Below are positions 13,396 to 35,427 of a stretch of 38,808 nucleotides of DNA, in pieces. The stretch spans positions 1-38,808 of IMG/VR virus record IMGVR_UViG_3300009488_000033; one strand, 5' to 3'. The notes below the pieces were generated by a model. It had not been told where the DNA came from. It saw only the letters and a list, made by a program, of their open reading frames with translations, and did not search any database. A program made the position numbers and the translations under genes. This DNA is from a virus. Every line of letters begins with the position of its first letter. Position 1 is the first letter of the stretch.

Positions 13396-13563
13396 ATGCC
13401 AAAGCAAAATCTGTTTCAAGAGGCAAGGGAAGAGGTTAAATTTCTTATCACTGAAGTTCGTGAAGAGATTAAGCAAGAGATGGGGAGTGGCGATGAGAAG
13501 AAGAGGCATGAGCGAGTCAGGAGAAGACTGGAGAAACGCATAAAGCGCTGGTGGGAGGAATAA
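13396..13563 (+). CDS. Small basic coiled-coil protein, 55 aa
   Basis: ATG at 13396 follows GGAGAGTAATA closely. The protein is almost entirely charged helix (EAREEVKFLITEVREEIKQE, then KKRHERVRRRLEKRIKRW). It ends one base into the next start (TAATG). It is placed between portal and the giant protein, so a head-assembly or ejection helper is conceivable. Confidence 0.65.
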   Translation: MPKQNLFQEAREEVKFLITEVREEIKQEMGSGDEKKRHERVRRRLEKRIKRWWEE

Positions 13564-16500
13564 TGTTATATCCTGGCGCATCCCCTGAAGCAAAGCCAAA
13601 GCCTGCTAAAAGAAAATGGTGGGAAGTAGAGGAAGTTGAGGAGACTAAGGAGGCCCCTCTGCTAAAACCACTAAGCGAGCTACGGAAACTAGAGAGAGAG
13701 GCAATTAAGGAAGTTCCTATTGAGGAGCCATTGCCTACACTCCCTAAGCCAATAAGAAAACCCGCCTTGCCTTCTGCCCGGGAAGAGCAAGAGGCCGAGA
13801 GTACGAAATGGTATGAGGAAGAGAAGTCCAAAATAGAAACTGGGTTTGCTGAGGCTGTTGCAGGATTGCCCCCTAAAGAGATGATAGAAAGAGGGGATGA
13901 GTGGAGGCAATATAAAGCGGCAGAGGAATGGTATACAGAAAATATAGCAGCACTTGATGCTGCTATGGCGGAACAAAAGCAGAAGGCGGCCGAATTCTTT
14001 GAGGTTCAGGAGGCAATATCAAGTTATGCTGGTAATCTCCAGGAACTCTTAAAGAAAGATGAGGACATCGATGCGGTTTCAGCTTTAATCCCTGAATATC
14101 AGACCGCTCTTGAGAAATATCGATACTTCTGGGAGCAAGAGGAAGAGCCGGAGACCCGAACCGAGGCCCTGGCTATGGCTGAGGAAACGCTTGCAGGGCT
14201 TGCCGATATTTTGCTTTATCCTGAAAAGTATATGCCTCTGTCAGCATGGGCAGAAAAGTCCTCGTGGGAAAAGATAACCGCATCTTTTGAGGCGACTGTT
14301 CTTGGTGCTCCTCTATATATGGCTCCGCTTCTTCCTATTACAGTTCCCCTAGGTATTCTCTCAGGATTCCATCAGGAAAAAGTAGAAGCGGTTTTCGGGA
14401 CTATTAAGAGGGGGGAAGAGTATTTTGCCGCTGCTTTTATGATGGGAGTCGAGACAGGGTGGCTTGCTCCCTTAGCTGCTATAGGTATAGGGACACCGGG
14501 TGGGGAAAGAGCCTTCAGGGAACTACGAGAGATGCCTTTGCCTTTTACCCAAGAGGCACTGGAGCGTTACCGTGAAATGGACTACCCGTGGGGGGTAAAG
14601 GGTGTTGTGGAGATAGCCCCGTGGTTTATGTTCCCTTATGGAGCGGCATTGCAAGGTGTTAGAGGTATCGCTGGGGCGCCGACTGCGATTCGGGGTACAC
14701 TTGGGTGGACTCCTGAGACTATTCGCATGATGCAGTGGACAAAGTTAGCGGTTGAGCATCCTGCCCTTCGAGCACAATTACCTAAGATCGCTAACCTTAT
14801 GAAGCCCGTAACCGCGGTTACAGCGGCGACTATGGAACCCGCGGCGCTAGCAGCGAGGTCTGTTCTCTGGACTGGCGGGGTTGTTAGTAAAGCAGTGGTT
14901 GGTGTTGTAAAGGCGACTCTAAAGCCTATTACAATTCCAGTTCGCTATGGGGTGAGAACTGTAGCCTCTGCCCTGAACTTAAAGGCATTAAACAAAACAG
15001 CCATGCCTAAAGGCTTGCAGGTAAGTGCCACTCGCCCTACAGCCGAAGCTCCTCACGCGGCTTATGTTGTTCGAGGAATTACGCCTGAGACGAAGGGCCT
15101 CGAGGTATTTGCCAGGGATATGTCTGAGGTAAAAAACTATGTGGTGACCGGTAAACTTATCCCCGAGGATATGGCAGGGCTTAATGAGATGATTTATGTC
15201 AAAGAGCTTGATGTTGCAATGCCTAAATCTCTGTTTATTGAAAGAATTTGGCCTAACGCTAGAGTTACCGAGAGTCGTTTGGGCACAGTGTATTCTACCG
15301 CAGAGCATCCCTCACTTACCGTAATCTCACAAACCATGATAAAGGGTCCAAAGCCCTTATGGGTGTCGCAGGAGACATGGGCTAGAGCCAAGAACCTTTT
15401 TGAGGCAAAGGCTGGTGAGATTAACGCCTTTCACGGGGATATGCACACCTTTATGCTTCGTTCTGTAGAAGAGGTGGCGGCTGTTCGTTTCAATCCTGAT
15501 ATGTACCGCCAAGCGGGGCTTTATGCCGCAAAGAATCCACAGGCGAAGTGGGTGATAGAGAGGGTCAATAAATCAGCCACTGCGGATACCGCAGCCCGAC
15601 AAGCAGTAATAGTATGGCTGGACGACACAGTAGTTATGCAAAGCTGGAAGAGCTACTGGGTGTCGGGTGAACTGGCATCTGTGGGGCAAAGCACCAGATT
15701 ATTCGGTATCCAGTTGAAGAAAGTTGTTGTTCGAGGAGAAAGGGCGAAATTCCCTAAAGAAGAGGTGGTGAAGGTTCTCCCGGAGGAGAGCGTGGACGCC
15801 CCGTTTGTTACTAAGGTTAGAGTAAAGCCAGGTCAAGAGGGAGCGAGTATGGCATTGGGGGATATTCTTGAGACGATACCTGCTTCTCCTCTATGTAAAT
15901 ACCTGTTTACGCCTGAGCAGGCAACCTATATTACCAAATTGCATGAGGTTGTTGATGAGGCAGTAGCGTTTGCGTTACGGCATGATGTCAGGATCAACAA
16001 GCGGGAAATGCTGGAAGGTTTGCATTATGTTCCTCGAACTACCCACTTTGGTTTGGCTAAAGGGGAGGTTATTTCTTATACAGGAGCTCGTGTTGGGACA
16101 ACGCCGTTCTTTGCGAGAATTAGGCAACACGAGACTATGATGGAGGGCATTCAGGTTGGGGTCCCCTATGGAGGGAGTGCCGAGGAATATATCGGGGCTT
16201 ACCTCGACGGCATTATTAGGATGGTAGCTGATAAGCGTCTGGCAGATACGATTAGCCCAAAGGGTATAACCCCGACTCAAATTGTTGCACGACAACAGCC
16301 CACGCTAATTCAGGCATTGAGAGATACGGCAAATAAGTCGAAATATCTTGGTGGTGGCAGGATTGAGTTTACTGCAAAGGGTGTTAAACATTTCCATTAT
16401 ACGCCAGGTCTCAAGGCAACTGTTCAAAGGGTGAGGCAATGGTGGAAGATACCTGAAGGAACAATAAAAGCAGCAGAGGTAAGGTTTCCTGCATTAGGGG

Positions 16501-19241
16501 CTAAGCTGAGGCAGATTACAGAGATACCGATGCCTGTACTGGAGAAGACAGTTAAGGCTATCTCGAAGGAGCAATGGCAGTCCACGAAGATTACCCGTGC
16601 AAGATTTCTGGAAGTATTAGCTGAGGTGCGAGGTGAACGAGTTGCTAAAGGTATCATTATTGGAGAGAAGAATGTCCTGCCTGGTGAACTCACGGCGACT
16701 TTAACAAAGCTGAATGTTGAGGCAAGGTTATCTGTTAAGTTGCTTAACCAAATATACAAACAGGCTTATAAAATACCGAGTGCGGAGCGAGAAGCCCTTA
16801 TTAAAGAACTTCTTGTCGACATTGAAGCTCAGATAAAAGTAACTCGCGCTGAACTGAATGTGCTTAAAAGGCAATATAAGACTGCGGTGGAGATAGCTCG
16901 GAGACCTATAGATAAGAACTATATTCAACACCCTGCTTTTGCCGGTAAGCTGTTTGATGAGGAGATAGTTGCTACTATAACCAAAGCGTTCAAGACTGAG
17001 ACAAATGCGTGGCTTAGAGCAAGTGCCACAGTAAGTGGGCTATTGCGAACTGCGGTTGCTGCTCTTGATATGTCGGCTGCATTTATTCACGGGCTACCTG
17101 TTTTCGGGCAAGATGTAGCAAATGCTCTGGCTGGGAAGCCGACCTTTGTTTGGGCAAATTCGGTAACACGGTCTTTCCATACTCTTCTCGATTATACCAT
17201 TCATGCTAAATACTTGGTGAAGAATGAGGCAGCGATTGCTGAGTTTGTAAAGCATGGTGGCTATGTCGGCGGGTCTGAATTTTATGAGGCGATGTCTACC
17301 ATCCAAAATCTGATAAGGACTATTACTACAGCAGGGGGGCGTTTACCAAAAGGGACAGCCACGCCGCCACTTTGGGTCTTGAGACAGACTTATGGGAGAG
17401 CCGAAGCAGCCTTCGGTGCTTTTGGGGATGTTGCCAGAGTTGAACTTTGGCGAAGTTTGAAGCCTTTGGTTGAGCCAAAAGACTACGCTGAGCTCGTGCA
17501 AACCATAAATAAGATGACAGGGGTAACATCGAGTCAGGGTCTAGGGATTGGTGCTAGTCAGGCAGCTATTGAGTCAGGCTGGGTATTCTTTGCCCCCCGA
17601 TATACGAGGGCAGGCTTTGCTCTTATAGCAGACATTTTCCGTGGGGGCATAAGAGGTCAGCTAGCCCGTGAGTCCCTGGGGGGGCTTATGGCTGGAGGGA
17701 TGGCGGTCTATATCGGGACCTGTAACGCATTAGGGCAAACACCCAACCTTGACCCTCGTTACCCCACCTTTATGACTGTTCGTATAGGCAACCAGAATGT
17801 TGGTGTTGGTGGCTTTATGATGTCGTTTGTGCGGTTTCAATCCAACTTGATGGCGAGTGCGGTTACAGACCCGTCAGATTTGTTTGTCTTTAGCCGGAGG
17901 GATAACCCTATCCTAAAGTTTCTCTATAATAAGAGTGCTCAGTTGACGAGGCTGACCGAAAACCCGATAAAGCTACTTGCCGGGGGAACAGCCGTAAACT
18001 ACTTTGGGGATCCATTAGAGGACACAGGAGATGTGGCAAGGTATTTGCTTGGCTTTGTAACCCCGATTGCAATGCAAAGTGTTACGACTCAAAAGGATAA
18101 GGCAAACTTCGTATCGCTTCTCGCCGAAATAATGGGCATGAGAACCTTCCCTAAATCTATCTGGGATTACCTAAAAGAGGAACGGGATAGACTGGCTCCA
18201 TTTGCCCCTGATCTTACAACCGAACAAATAGGTATGCGAAATGCGGGAACTTTGGAGTGGGGGCATTTAAGCAAAGGCCAGAAGGAAGTATTGATAAAGA
18301 CCAATCCTGATTTGGCAGCACTGGAGCTCGAGAGTTCCCTGCAAAGCATTAAGCGAGGCGATGAGGAGAAGAAGAGATATGGGAAATGGCAGGAATCGTC
18401 AAACCAGATTGAGGTATATCGTCAAGGGCAGTGGGATATTGCCATAACTGAATACCAGCACAATATGGAGCTAAAGAAGAGATGGCGTGAGGGTGATACC
18501 ACTTTAACAGAGGAAGAGATTGAGAAGGCAAAGGGTGCAGGGAGAACATTCCGGGGCAAGATTTCTGACATAGGCACGGCTGTTTACAATAGGCGCCAGC
18601 AGTTAAGGGTAGACTTCCCCGATGTTTATGAACTCTTCGACCAATGGGGGGCCGAGGAAGAGGAATCCAGTATACGGAACATCGCAGCGTATGACGAGTA
18701 TGTCTGGCTGATGTATGAGAAGGGGGGGTTGGAGGATGAGAGTGGCAACCCGCTTTGGGATGAGATAGAGAAAAGAGAACAAGAGTTTATTTTAGAATGG
18801 GGGAGACCTACCTATGAGTGGGTTCAAAGAGAGTTGGCAAGATTAAGAGAAGAACCTCCTCTAGTGGTTGAACTAAGGGCGGCTAAGGAACACCTGAGGC
18901 CATACTGGGAAGTAGAGGAGACATTGTTGGCTAGTGGGCGGTACCCAAAGGATAGGGGAGAGCAAGAGGAATGGATTGTTAGAGATATGGCGAAGAGTAA
19001 TAAATATGCTAGCGAACTCTACGCAGCAATGGTTAGAGCCTACGAGGAAGATCGAGCGCTTTATGATAAATACCGGGGCAGCAGCTATATGAGGGGACTC
19101 TTTGCATGGGCAGATCGAATAAGAATTCCTACTGTGGGATCAGTGCTTGGAGACAAGCGAGAGGAAATGAGAAGGGCCGACCCGAAGATGGACGCATACT
19201 TGGTAACATTTTATGACCGGGTTCCCATTATGGAGCAATGA
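13563..19241 (+). CDS. Giant virion-type protein, 1892 aa (candidate internal or ejection protein)
   Basis: The start at 13563 overlaps the previous stop and follows GGGAGG. Residues 1-230 are charged and helical. About 240-375 hold three apolar segments (PLLPITVPLGILSGF, FMMGVETGWLAPLAAIGIG, IAPWFMFPYGAALQGV). About 1165-1190 reads TAVAALDMSAAFIHGLPVFG, and the 1300s hold FFAPRYTRAGFALIADIF, LGGLMAGGMAVYIG, LDPRYPTFMTVRIGNQNVG and NPILKFLYN. This resembles, from memory, a block in giant polyvalent phage proteins. From about 1540 on it is a Glu/Lys/Arg-rich helical tail. It lies between portal and scaffold, where a tape measure would not be expected. It could form or breach membranes during ejection. 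No enzyme motif is clear. Confidence 0.7.
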   Translation: MLYPGASPEAKPKPAKRKWWEVEEVEETKEAPLLKPLSELRKLEREAIKEVPIEEPLPTLPKPIRKPALPSAREEQEAESTKWYEEEKSKIETGFAEAVAGLPPKEMIERGDEWRQYKAAEEWYTENIAALDAAMAEQKQKAAEFFEVQEAISSYAGNLQELLKKDEDIDAVSALIPEYQTALEKYRYFWEQEEEPETRTEALAMAEETLAGLADILLYPEKYMPLSAWAEKSSWEKITASFEATVLGAPLYMAPLLPITVPLGILSGFHQEKVEAVFGTIKRGEEYFAAAFMMGVETGWLAPLAAIGIGTPGGERAFRELREMPLPFTQEALERYREMDYPWGVKGVVEIAPWFMFPYGAALQGVRGIAGAPTAIRGTLGWTPETIRMMQWTKLAVEHPALRAQLPKIANLMKPVTAVTAATMEPAALAARSVLWTGGVVSKAVVGVVKATLKPITIPVRYGVRTVASALNLKALNKTAMPKGLQVSATRPTAEAPHAAYVVRGITPETKGLEVFARDMSEVKNYVVTGKLIPEDMAGLNEMIYVKELDVAMPKSLFIERIWPNARVTESRLGTVYSTAEHPSLTVISQTMIKGPKPLWVSQETWARAKNLFEAKAGEINAFHGDMHTFMLRSVEEVAAVRFNPDMYRQAGLYAAKNPQAKWVIERVNKSATADTAARQAVIVWLDDTVVMQSWKSYWVSGELASVGQSTRLFGIQLKKVVVRGERAKFPKEEVVKVLPEESVDAPFVTKVRVKPGQEGASMALGDILETIPASPLCKYLFTPEQATYITKLHEVVDEAVAFALRHDVRINKREMLEGLHYVPRTTHFGLAKGEVISYTGARVGTTPFFARIRQHETMMEGIQVGVPYGGSAEEYIGAYLDGIIRMVADKRLADTISPKGITPTQIVARQQPTLIQALRDTANKSKYLGGGRIEFTAKGVKHFHYTPGLKATVQRVRQWWKIPEGTIKAAEVRFPALGAKLRQITEIPMPVLEKTVKAISKEQWQSTKITRARFLEVLAEVRGERVAKGIIIGEKNVLPGELTATLTKLNVEARLSVKLLNQIYKQAYKIPSAEREALIKELLVDIEAQIKVTRAELNVLKRQYKTAVEIARRPIDKNYIQHPAFAGKLFDEEIVATITKAFKTETNAWLRASATVSGLLRTAVAALDMSAAFIHGLPVFGQDVANALAGKPTFVWANSVTRSFHTLLDYTIHAKYLVKNEAAIAEFVKHGGYVGGSEFYEAMSTIQNLIRTITTAGGRLPKGTATPPLWVLRQTYGRAEAAFGAFGDVARVELWRSLKPLVEPKDYAELVQTINKMTGVTSSQGLGIGASQAAIESGWVFFAPRYTRAGFALIADIFRGGIRGQLARESLGGLMAGGMAVYIGTCNALGQTPNLDPRYPTFMTVRIGNQNVGVGGFMMSFVRFQSNLMASAVTDPSDLFVFSRRDNPILKFLYNKSAQLTRLTENPIKLLAGGTAVNYFGDPLEDTGDVARYLLGFVTPIAMQSVTTQKDKANFVSLLAEIMGMRTFPKSIWDYLKEERDRLAPFAPDLTTEQIGMRNAGTLEWGHLSKGQKEVLIKTNPDLAALELESSLQSIKRGDEEKKRYGKWQESSNQIEVYRQGQWDIAITEYQHNMELKKRWREGDTTLTEEEIEKAKGAGRTFRGKISDIGTAVYNRRQQLRVDFPDVYELFDQWGAEEEESSIRNIAAYDEYVWLMYEKGGLEDESGNPLWDEIEKREQEFILEWGRPTYEWVQRELARLREEPPLVVELRAAKEHLRPYWEVEETLLASGRYPKDRGEQEEWIVRDMAKSNKYASELYAAMVRAYEEDRALYDKYRGSSYMRGLFAWADRIRIPTVGSVLGDKREEMRRADPKMDAYLVTFYDRVPIMEQ

Positions 19242-33598: not shown

Positions 33599-33985
33599 AT
33601 GACCCTGATTTACCGTGCCTTACATTTTACCTTCGAGGCAAGCGGGATGCCGGCGAGTCTCCTGGAGGATATTGCATGGCTCAAGGAGGCTATGGAGGAT
33701 ATTGTGTCCCTTTTCGGCATGACTCCTATTCCTGGCACCGAGACTATTGCCGTGAAGATCGAGGATAACGAAAAGGCGTGGGGATCCGGCGTGTCCATTA
33801 TCATCCCCTTGTCGGACAGCCATCTAGCATTACATACGCTCTCCGAAAAAAGCCACCTGTATTTCGACTTCTTTTCGTGCAAGCCGTTTCCGCATACCGA
33901 GCTCTCTTGGTTACTACAACGAATCTTCAAGCCGGCCTGGACCAGGTCCGGAATGGTAGACAGGACAATAACTAGCGTGGTATAA
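33599..33985 (+). CDS. speD-like: S-adenosylmethionine decarboxylase (SpeD)-like pyruvoyl enzyme
   Basis: This 128-residue protein fits the short bacterial AdoMetDC. The segment SIIIPLSDSHLALHT covers residues 66-80 and FDFFSCKPF covers 89-97. Relative to the Thermotoga enzyme, Ser55, Ser63, His68 and Cys83 correspond to Ser66, Ser74, His79 and Cys94 at exactly the same spacing. Ser74 would become the pyruvoyl group; the residue before it is Asp73 instead of the usual Glu. The product could make decarboxylated AdoMet for spermidine, or, since relatives are known to have changed substrate, decarboxylate arginine or ornithine. It has no obvious neighbour in polyamine synthesis. The ribosome binding site is weak (GGGGGACTTTATGG). 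Confidence 0.78.
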   Translation: MTLIYRALHFTFEASGMPASLLEDIAWLKEAMEDIVSLFGMTPIPGTETIAVKIEDNEKAWGSGVSIIIPLSDSHLALHTLSEKSHLYFDFFSCKPFPHTELSWLLQRIFKPAWTRSGMVDRTITSVV

Positions 33986-34059: not shown

Positions 34060-34087
34060 TTGACTTTTAGTGGGGGCGTGGTAGAAT
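34060..34087 (+). promoter_or_regulatory. Promoter of the candidate small RNA
   Basis: TTGACT (34060-34065), a 16-base spacer and TAGAAT (34082-34087). The predicted start near 34094 is just before a UUCG hairpin. Confidence 0.6.
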
Positions 34088-34093
34088 AAATGC

Positions 34094-34195
34094 AGATCAC
34101 CCCATCCGCTTCGGTGGGTGGGAGCAAGGCTACCCGAATTGTCACCGTATGGTGTGCGTGTTCCATGTCTGGGACTAGGGTAGCCTTTGCATTTT
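34094..34195 (+). ncRNA. Candidate structured small RNA (UUCG hairpin plus three-way junction)
   Basis: CCCATCCGC (34101-34109) and GTGGGTGGG (34114-34122) form a nine-pair stem closed by a C(UUCG)G tetraloop. GCAAGGCTACCC (34124-34135) pairs with GGGTAGCCTTTGC (34178-34190, one bulged T). Inside it are two hairpins: CACC/GGTG (34143-34154) and TTCCA/TGGGA (34161-34174). ATTTTAA follows, a weak terminator tail. A promoter sits at 34060 and no gene is nearby on either strand. Alternative: an untranslated leader of the next operon, although another promoter intervenes at 34314. Confidence 0.6.
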
Positions 34196-34274
34196 AAGCA
34201 CCTCTTTAGCTTCATACGATCTGCTATCAGCTACAAAAAGCTAGCGCCTTTTAGCACAACTCCGCACAAAGGTT

Positions 34275-34313: not shown

Positions 34314-34342
34314 TTGACAACCTTATTTCTTTATGGGATAAT
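34314..34342 (+). promoter_or_regulatory. Promoter of the right-hand early-type operon
   Basis: TTGACA (34314-34319), a 17-base spacer and GATAAT (34337-34342). A GGATAA direct repeat surrounds the expected start. The downstream AAGGTGAGCTAATG (34364-34377) is identical to that of the operon at 6665. Confidence 0.8.
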
Positions 34343-34374
34343 TATAGTAGGATAAACCAAAGGAAGGTGAGCTA

Positions 34375-34752
34375 ATGCAGAAGCAGTCTATATCTGACCA
34401 AATATGCAAGACTCTCTCCCTTCCGCGGGTGAAGGTTAGAATTGATAAAAGATTACGGGGTGATAGTGGTCACTATGGTAAGGATGTAGTGCTTTCCTCT
34501 TATGCCAGCATCTCTACGCTACTGCATGAGCTGGCTCATCATCTACACCATTGTCGGTTTCAAAGAAGGGTTAAAGGATACTTCAAAACAGAAAAGTGTC
34601 CCTCAATGAAGCCTTGCCCAGAGCATCCTGGCTTTTATGCGGCAATAGGGCCTCTTGAACTTGTTTATACGGTGAATGATATACATGGTGGAGATTTCAA
34701 GCGTTGCTATATAGACATTCGGGCAGTGTATTCCAAAGCAAAAGGAAGGTGA
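34375..34752 (+). CDS. HExxH metallopeptidase-like protein, 125 aa
   Basis: The segment LLHELAHHLHH holds HELAH at residues 51-55, the zinc-binding and catalytic HExxH motif of metallopeptidases, with additional histidines following. A C-terminal DIHGGDFKRCYIDIRAVY could offer a third ligand. It is the first gene after the promoter at 34314. Phage peptidases of this kind act on host or virion proteins; the target is unknown. A second such gene lies at 35026. Confidence 0.7.
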   Translation: MQKQSISDQICKTLSLPRVKVRIDKRLRGDSGHYGKDVVLSSYASISTLLHELAHHLHHCRFQRRVKGYFKTEKCPSMKPCPEHPGFYAAIGPLELVYTVNDIHGGDFKRCYIDIRAVYSKAKGR

Positions 34753-34753
34753 G

Positions 34754-34954
34754 ATGATGCCGAAATATAAAACTCTTCGGAAACTACCCCGCAACAAGAT
34801 CATCAAAGCGTATTATGATGCCCATAAGGATGATGAGACCCTTGATGAGATAGGCTCTCATTGGGACATCTCCGGTGAGCGTGTTCGCCAGATTGTGAAC
34901 ACGCCCTCTTCTTATGGGGGGACTGAGCCCGTGGAACACCCCAGGGCACGCTGA
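34754..34954 (+). CDS. Sigma-region-4-like HTH protein, 66 aa
   Basis: Residues about 28-48 read ETLDEIGSHWDISGERVRQI, very close to the sigma70 region 4.2 helix-turn-helix (TLEEIG..F.ISRERVRQIE) that binds -35 boxes. The rest is a basic N-terminus (KYKTLRKLPRNKIIKAYY) and a short tail. It has no region 2, so it is not a full sigma factor; it could act as a repressor, an activator, or a decoy binding core polymerase. ATGATG at 34754 follows AAGGAAGGTGAG. Confidence 0.72.
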   Translation: MMPKYKTLRKLPRNKIIKAYYDAHKDDETLDEIGSHWDISGERVRQIVNTPSSYGGTEPVEHPRAR

Positions 34955-35025
34955 GGAGACGCTGAGAGGGCTTGTCGGTAGCACCTTAACTGGTTAGGTG
35001 TTACTAAAGCAAAGGAGGTGAGCTA

Positions 35026-35427
35026 ATGATAAGCATCATCAATAAGGCTAGATTCAAGTTGCCTGAGTATATTGCTGATAGCCTTCGTGAGTTTTGCCGG
35101 AAGGCTCATATCGCACCCACTAAGGTTTGCTTAATAGTCAAACGGCGTAATCGTTGCATCGGCGACTGTTGGGTGAAGAAGGGGGATAGTAACATACCTT
35201 CTGGTGGTTACCACATGGACTACAGGACTATAACCCTTCGGATTGGGAAGCGTAGCAGTCAGGAAGATGTTAGATATGTTCTAGCCCATGAGATTGGACA
35301 CCTAAAAGACCACATAAGGGGGTGCTTACTCATCAAGCCGACAGAAGATTATGCCCGCAGGTTTGCCTTATTAACCTGTAACTGCTACCCCAAAAGCAAC
35401 TATAGAGGAATAAGGAAGGTGAGATGA
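35026..35427 (+). CDS. Second HExxH metallopeptidase-like protein, 133 aa
   Basis: ATG follows AAAGGAGGTGAG. RYVLAHEIGHLKDH places HEIGH at residues 88-92, the HExxH zinc motif, preceded by a beta strand (RTITLRIG) as in SprT/M-type minimal peptidases. Cysteines at RCIGDCW and in CNCYPK may hold another metal. It is a diverged relative of the gene at 34375 by motif only. Its overlap with the next gene shows operon coupling. Confidence 0.7.
   Translation: MISIINKARFKLPEYIADSLREFCRKAHIAPTKVCLIVKRRNRCIGDCWVKKGDSNIPSGGYHMDYRTITLRIGKRSSQEDVRYVLAHEIGHLKDHIRGCLLIKPTEDYARRFALLTCNCYPKSNYRGIRKVR

Follow-up and report, generated by a model that had tools for sequence, protein, structure and literature searches.

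The viral DNA analysed here (38,808 nucleotides; the window) contains a structured stretch at 34060–34195, and the question is which RNA it encodes and what use a phage may have for it. The original prediction proposed a small regulatory or anti-host RNA. The RNA is intergenic: the AdoMet decarboxylase gene is followed by the RNA and then by the gene 34375–34752. The phage-encoded S-adenosylmethionine decarboxylase gene (33599–33985; PF02675, E = 1e-13) ends just before the RNA. No plausible gene covers 34060–34195, as had been claimed; the overlapping open reading frames are both on the minus strand and have just 54 and 44 aa.

According to cmscan, 34125–34192 corresponds to the DUF3800-IX RNA (Rfam RF02968), with a score of 55.6 bits (cut-off 36.8) and an E-value of 1.5e-9. 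The match spans positions 1–67 of the 67-position model and is full-length. The closing stem and the two hairpins with compensatory changes, which characterize RF02968 structurally, are all present. The covariance model built here, R1, gives 58.6 bits for 34124–34189. Nothing else in the window reaches the gathering threshold of an Rfam family, and a tRNA or tmRNA identity was excluded. Rfam types RF02968 as an sRNA gene and defines it on sequence and structure alone; the family reportedly comes from Weinberg et al. 2017. It is nearly certain that the window RNA (34124–34190, plus strand) is a new member of this described family and not an unknown RNA. It shares with the family the sequence core, the three-way junction, the covarying stems and a score well over the curated cut-off. 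Unlike the usual members, it lies in a record with no DUF3800 gene, it is preceded by an extra UUCG hairpin, and its promoter is about 25 nt farther upstream. An adjoining convergent DUF3800 gene is typical of RF02968 but not defining, and it is missing at the window RNA. The interest of the window RNA lies in its setting, a phage in which it is an orphan. In the literature examined, to which the 2017 discovery paper does not belong, no function is assigned to DUF3800 or to the DUF3800 RNA families.

The predicted promoter was found by a consensus scan at 34060–34087 on the plus strand (TTGACT, 16 nt, TAGAAT; 10 of 12 matches). TG precedes the second hexamer, and the predicted transcription start is at about 34094. 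The consensus match taken alone is modest evidence for an RNA promoter; the scan detected five promoter-like sites in 1.5 kb (1.6 expected). The −10 box ends 36 nt 5′ of the stem, whereas this distance is usually 11–12 nt in those paired relatives whose promoter matches well. The nine-pair C(UUCG)G hairpin lies at 34101–34122 on the plus strand (CCCATCCGC-TTCG-GTGGGTGGG), and two of its nine pairs are G-U. Neither strand of the window has another UUCG hairpin of at least nine pairs, and 60 first-order random sequences contained none. In the closing stem, which has 12 pairs, GCAAGGCTACCC (34124–34135) is paired with GGGTAGCC-T-TTGC (34178–34190), and one T is bulged. The stem encloses inner hairpins at 34141–34157 and 34160–34175. 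The first belongs to the conserved core GAAUUGUCACCGUAUGGUGUGCGU (34136–34159, according to alignment A1), and the second, GUUCCA-UGUC-UGGGAC, is variable and covarying. The stem is followed by ATTTTAA (34191–34197), a weak T-rich 3′ tail. For the promoter, the hairpin, the stem and the tail, a base-by-base check, together with the scan and the fold, agrees with the original prediction. The T fraction 3′ of the stem is 0.42 in the window and 0.47 at the paired loci, with a background of 0.25, and the closing stem with its tail may be a terminator of the RNA.

The minimum free energy of 34060–34195 is −54.3 kcal/mol (z = −3.4), and none of 200 shuffles was equally low. The 100-nt stretch containing the RNA ranks fourth in fold stability among 3,872 windows of this length, and those ranked above it overlap one G-rich hairpin near 1165–1205. 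This G/C-rich hairpin (AATGGGGGGTGGGGAGG...CCTCCCCACCCCCCATT) is located within a DnaD/O-like replication gene (689–1516), forms the most stable fold of the window and is a candidate replication origin.

DNA patterns for the RNA core were used to fetch viral and cellular loci. Many of the first matches were due to chance, and they were dropped after covariance scoring; RF02968 scored above the cut-off in 24 IMG/VR records found by the core pattern. Model R1 detected 18 orphan copies, including that of the window, in addition to cellular and paired copies. Alignment A1 shows 19 invariant columns in 64 sequences; this invariance partly reflects how the sequences were selected, as the search pattern was taken from part of the core. 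When only the 18 orphan RNAs are considered, pairing holds for 86% of the cells, compared with 67% after shuffling. Two-sided changes are present at 16 of 22 pairs and amount to 84 cells (29 expected), and the covariation score was reached by none of 500 shuffles. When the stem was slid by 1–3 columns, pairing decreased to 31–48%. The orphan alignment was fitted to the model and is biased towards it; the slid and shuffled controls are nonetheless far off. Broken stem pairs in relatives had been named as a finding that would refute this RNA; on the contrary, the 12-pair stem and the inner hairpins covary in related phage RNAs. The strong pairing and covariation across the 18 orphan RNAs indicate that, as a group, they are not decaying.

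The 5′ hairpin lies outside RF02968. A hairpin at this place is present in 9 of 17 orphan RNAs and in 24 of 59 gene-paired RNAs (p = 0.41), and thus a class-wide 5′ hairpin of orphan phage RNAs was rejected. The orphans with a hairpin directly before the stem include, besides the window, L005, L060 and L077. The UUCG hairpin and the stem had been predicted as one RNA; only the stem with its inner hairpins belongs to the conserved RNA. The UUCG hairpin is probably only a local stabiliser of the 5′ end.

No near relative of the window phage spanning the RNA was found by megablast (1.2 kb) or decarboxylase tblastn against cultured phages, or by a decarboxylase search of IMG/VR. Only L215 (26.5 kb) has an identical capsid protein, and the stretch of it that was examined ends well before the RNA region. 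Core queries of 30 nt gave mostly chance-level matches against cultured phages and plasmids.

In cells, the RNA is usually one half of a pair. A DUF3800 gene, in one case just a fragment, is found beside the RNA at 62 of 69 distinct cellular loci with a solid model score, and the remaining seven RNAs have no DUF3800 protein. The gene is nearly always located directly downstream in convergent orientation, and its 3′ end is mostly within about 60 nt of the RNA. With a promoter that, when well matched, usually ends 11–12 nt before the stem, and with a T-rich tail, the cellular unit looks like a short free RNA. The module is sporadic, with one occurrence among 201 genomes of a single genus, and the neighbourhood comparison showed no common third gene. 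The neighbours are scattered methyltransferases and single defence candidates, and no link to defence islands was found around the cellular modules. Tandem RNAs beside one DUF3800 gene are present in L203 (4825–5064, three copies) and L149 (2349–2555, two copies), and they recall ToxI arrays. A sister RNA, DUF3800-VII (RF02967), is found at L304 (3771–3856) and L305 (3772–3855) in the matching downstream, convergent position to viral DUF3800 genes. This is thus another DUF3800 RNA family with a similar layout.

In viruses, the RNA frequently stands alone. In the window record, neither a DUF3800 gene nor a remnant was detected using the Pfam or subfamily profile (E ≤ 1). By the same profiles and threshold, DUF3800 is missing from 17 of the 24 IMG/VR records of the core-pattern set, an absence that is firm only for the region adjoining the RNA because viral records are incomplete. 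With one identical DNA pattern, the ratio of paired to orphan RNAs is 62:7 in cellular and 3:11 in viral sequences (p = 5e-7). A protein-led search added at least ten viral RNAs beside DUF3800 that the RNA pattern had missed; of the 22 viral DUF3800 proteins that are closest, 16 are encoded beside the RNA. Overall, 18 of 35 viral RNAs are orphans; this is about half, which still differs strongly from the proportion in cells (p = 1e-5). Near the RNA, the genes of the orphan phages match those of the window in weak, scattered hits only, and this scarce sharing suggests several acquisitions. Integrases are encoded by some orphan phages, and the window has neither an integrase nor a resolvase.

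The partner protein was analysed using an alignment of 38 DUF3800 proteins and an AlphaFold model (mean pLDDT 92.8). The best structural matches of the model are RNase HII (Foldseek E = 6e-6; VIA Z = 13.2, r.m.s. difference of 2.6 Å for 156 residues). The conserved acidic residues are Asp6, Glu/Asp7, Glu55, Asp126 and Asp168, and Glu55 and Asp168 are invariant. Asp6 and Glu/Asp7 end strand 1 and Asp126 ends strand 4 of the predicted structure, and are placed as the acids of RNase H2 (PMC3025331); carboxylates at the ends of strands 1 and 4 are characteristic of the RNase HII fold. The fourth acid, Asp168, is in a helix in DUF3800, whereas that of T. maritima RNase H2 is in the loop before the last helix (PMC3025331). 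Thus, the active site is not identical to that of RNase H2. The DUF3800 partner is predicted from the model to be an RNase HII-like nuclease. An RNase H fold with a catalytic rearrangement was predicted earlier for DUF3800, and its link to putative ncRNAs was noted (PMC10910872). A PDB sequence search with the DUF3800 profile gave nothing significant. The PADLOC model PDC-M04A also recognises the DUF3800 proteins; it labels candidates, and a match to it is not evidence of a defence function. In the literature examined, no toxicity or defence role is reported for this DUF3800 subfamily.

The simplest reading of a phage that carries the RNA alone is that the RNA is used in trans on a host DUF3800 protein. 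According to this reading, the promoter of the phage RNA would yield a DUF3800-IX RNA of about 100 nt. The bacterial RNA, which is paired with the convergent DUF3800 gene, would be the partner of the encoded protein with its predicted fold and would bind it. The phage RNA would adopt the same three-way junction, present the same conserved core to the putative host DUF3800 protein, and occupy or neutralise it like a mimic or decoy of an RNA antitoxin. We give a probability of roughly 0.4 to this reading, in which the phage RNA acts in trans by binding a DUF3800 protein of the host and probably serves to decoy or neutralise it. A wider proposal is tentative and somewhat unlikely: that the DUF3800-IX RNA and the DUF3800 nuclease form an immunity or toxin–antitoxin module, and that diverse phages, including that of the window, independently took the RNA alone as an anti-defence decoy. 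The seven cellular RNAs without the protein, the merely scattered defence genes at the cellular modules, and the pairing of about half of the viral RNAs all count against the decoy. In the original prediction, the structured small-RNA gene is borne out by the Rfam sRNA match and the covarying stems; the anti-host role fits the orphan pattern but is unproven. The orphan-RNA phages give a direct clue: in them the RNA must be of use in trans, with the host RNase HII-like partner as its likely target. If this is true, the module would be a new type of RNA–protein defence or toxin–antitoxin system, and the phage RNA would join pseudo-ToxI and Racr as another family of RNA mimics carried by phages.

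Precedents exist for such a decoy. Like the pseudo-ToxI of phage PhiTE (PMC3475682), the window RNA is a copy, carried by a phage, of an RNA that in cells goes together with a nuclease, which for DUF3800 is a prediction; some cellular DUF3800-IX loci also have tandem copies. The RNA and protein families are different, and the mimicry is putative here; the DUF3800 gene is convergent, whereas the toxin gene lies downstream of ToxI in one operon. The ToxI-like arrangement, in which tandem repeats precede a toxin gene of the same direction, was not observed: the window copy is single, the cellular gene is convergent, and tandems are found in few loci. The Racr RNA anti-CRISPRs, which are solitary viral CRISPR-repeat RNAs, are also viral RNA units without the protein genes of the cellular system (PMC10651486). 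In contrast to Racr, the DUF3800-IX RNA is not a CRISPR repeat, and its target system is only putatively immune. The abiF-motif RNA (RCd22, RF03085), cited there to the same 2017 survey as DUF3800-IX, proved to be an RNA antitoxin that binds and neutralises the adjacent protein (PMC12373285). Its adjacent gene is co-directional, unlike DUF3800, and its RNA and protein are unrelated to those of DUF3800-IX.

Other explanations have to be weighed against the decoy. The window RNA could be a relic or cargo with little or no present function, left after the DUF3800-IX module passed through phages and lost its protein gene. Viral and prophage-like records with paired modules exist, and decay is seen in cells at L140, where the RNA lies beside a 30-aa DUF3800 fragment, and at L279, where DUF3800 is truncated. 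This origin is nevertheless unlikely: in the window the core is intact, the stem is complete and a promoter precedes the RNA, the record has no DUF3800 remnant, and the orphans as a group retain pairing with many two-sided changes.

The orphan pattern and the partner-protein evidence would equally suit a phage RNA that recruits or activates a host DUF3800 nuclease for the benefit of the phage, by attack on host RNA or DNA or by exclusion of rival phages, with no inhibition. A nuclease with an RNA partner could use the RNA as a cofactor or guide. Such activation is improbable; no spacer-like or variable guide segment was seen, and the variable parts are base-paired stems. It is quite improbable that the RNA acts through another phage or host protein independently of DUF3800, as the occurrence of the RNA without DUF3800 in 18 viral records and at seven cellular loci might suggest, since the same gene stays adjacent at most cellular loci across diverse phyla. 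A cis-acting leader or terminator for neighbouring genes would suit the T-rich tail and the intergenic location, with the AdoMet decarboxylase gene on one side and the 34375 gene on the other, but is very improbable, because the 34375 gene has a separate promoter (TTGACA-17-GATAAT, 34314–34342, plus strand, 11 of 12 in the consensus scan), which counts against the RNA as its leader, the nearest cellular gene is convergent, so that the RNA cannot be its leader, and other phages have different gene neighbours.

Several minor features were also observed. In L071 (150–310), the orphan RNA is flanked by the inverted repeats GGTCACC...GGTGACC and TTTCCGG...CCGGAAA, which could mark a small mobile unit or, by pairing, place the RNA inside a longer hairpin. 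In the window, an open reading frame of 1,896 aa (13551–19241), flanked by the terminase-side genes and the gene of the major head protein, has no Pfam match. Similar ribosome-binding leaders, AAAGGAAGGTGAGCTAATG (34354–34382, 34736–34764 and 35005–35033), precede three genes, and two of the three encode proteins with weak, sub-threshold matches to SprT/M78-type metalloprotease families.
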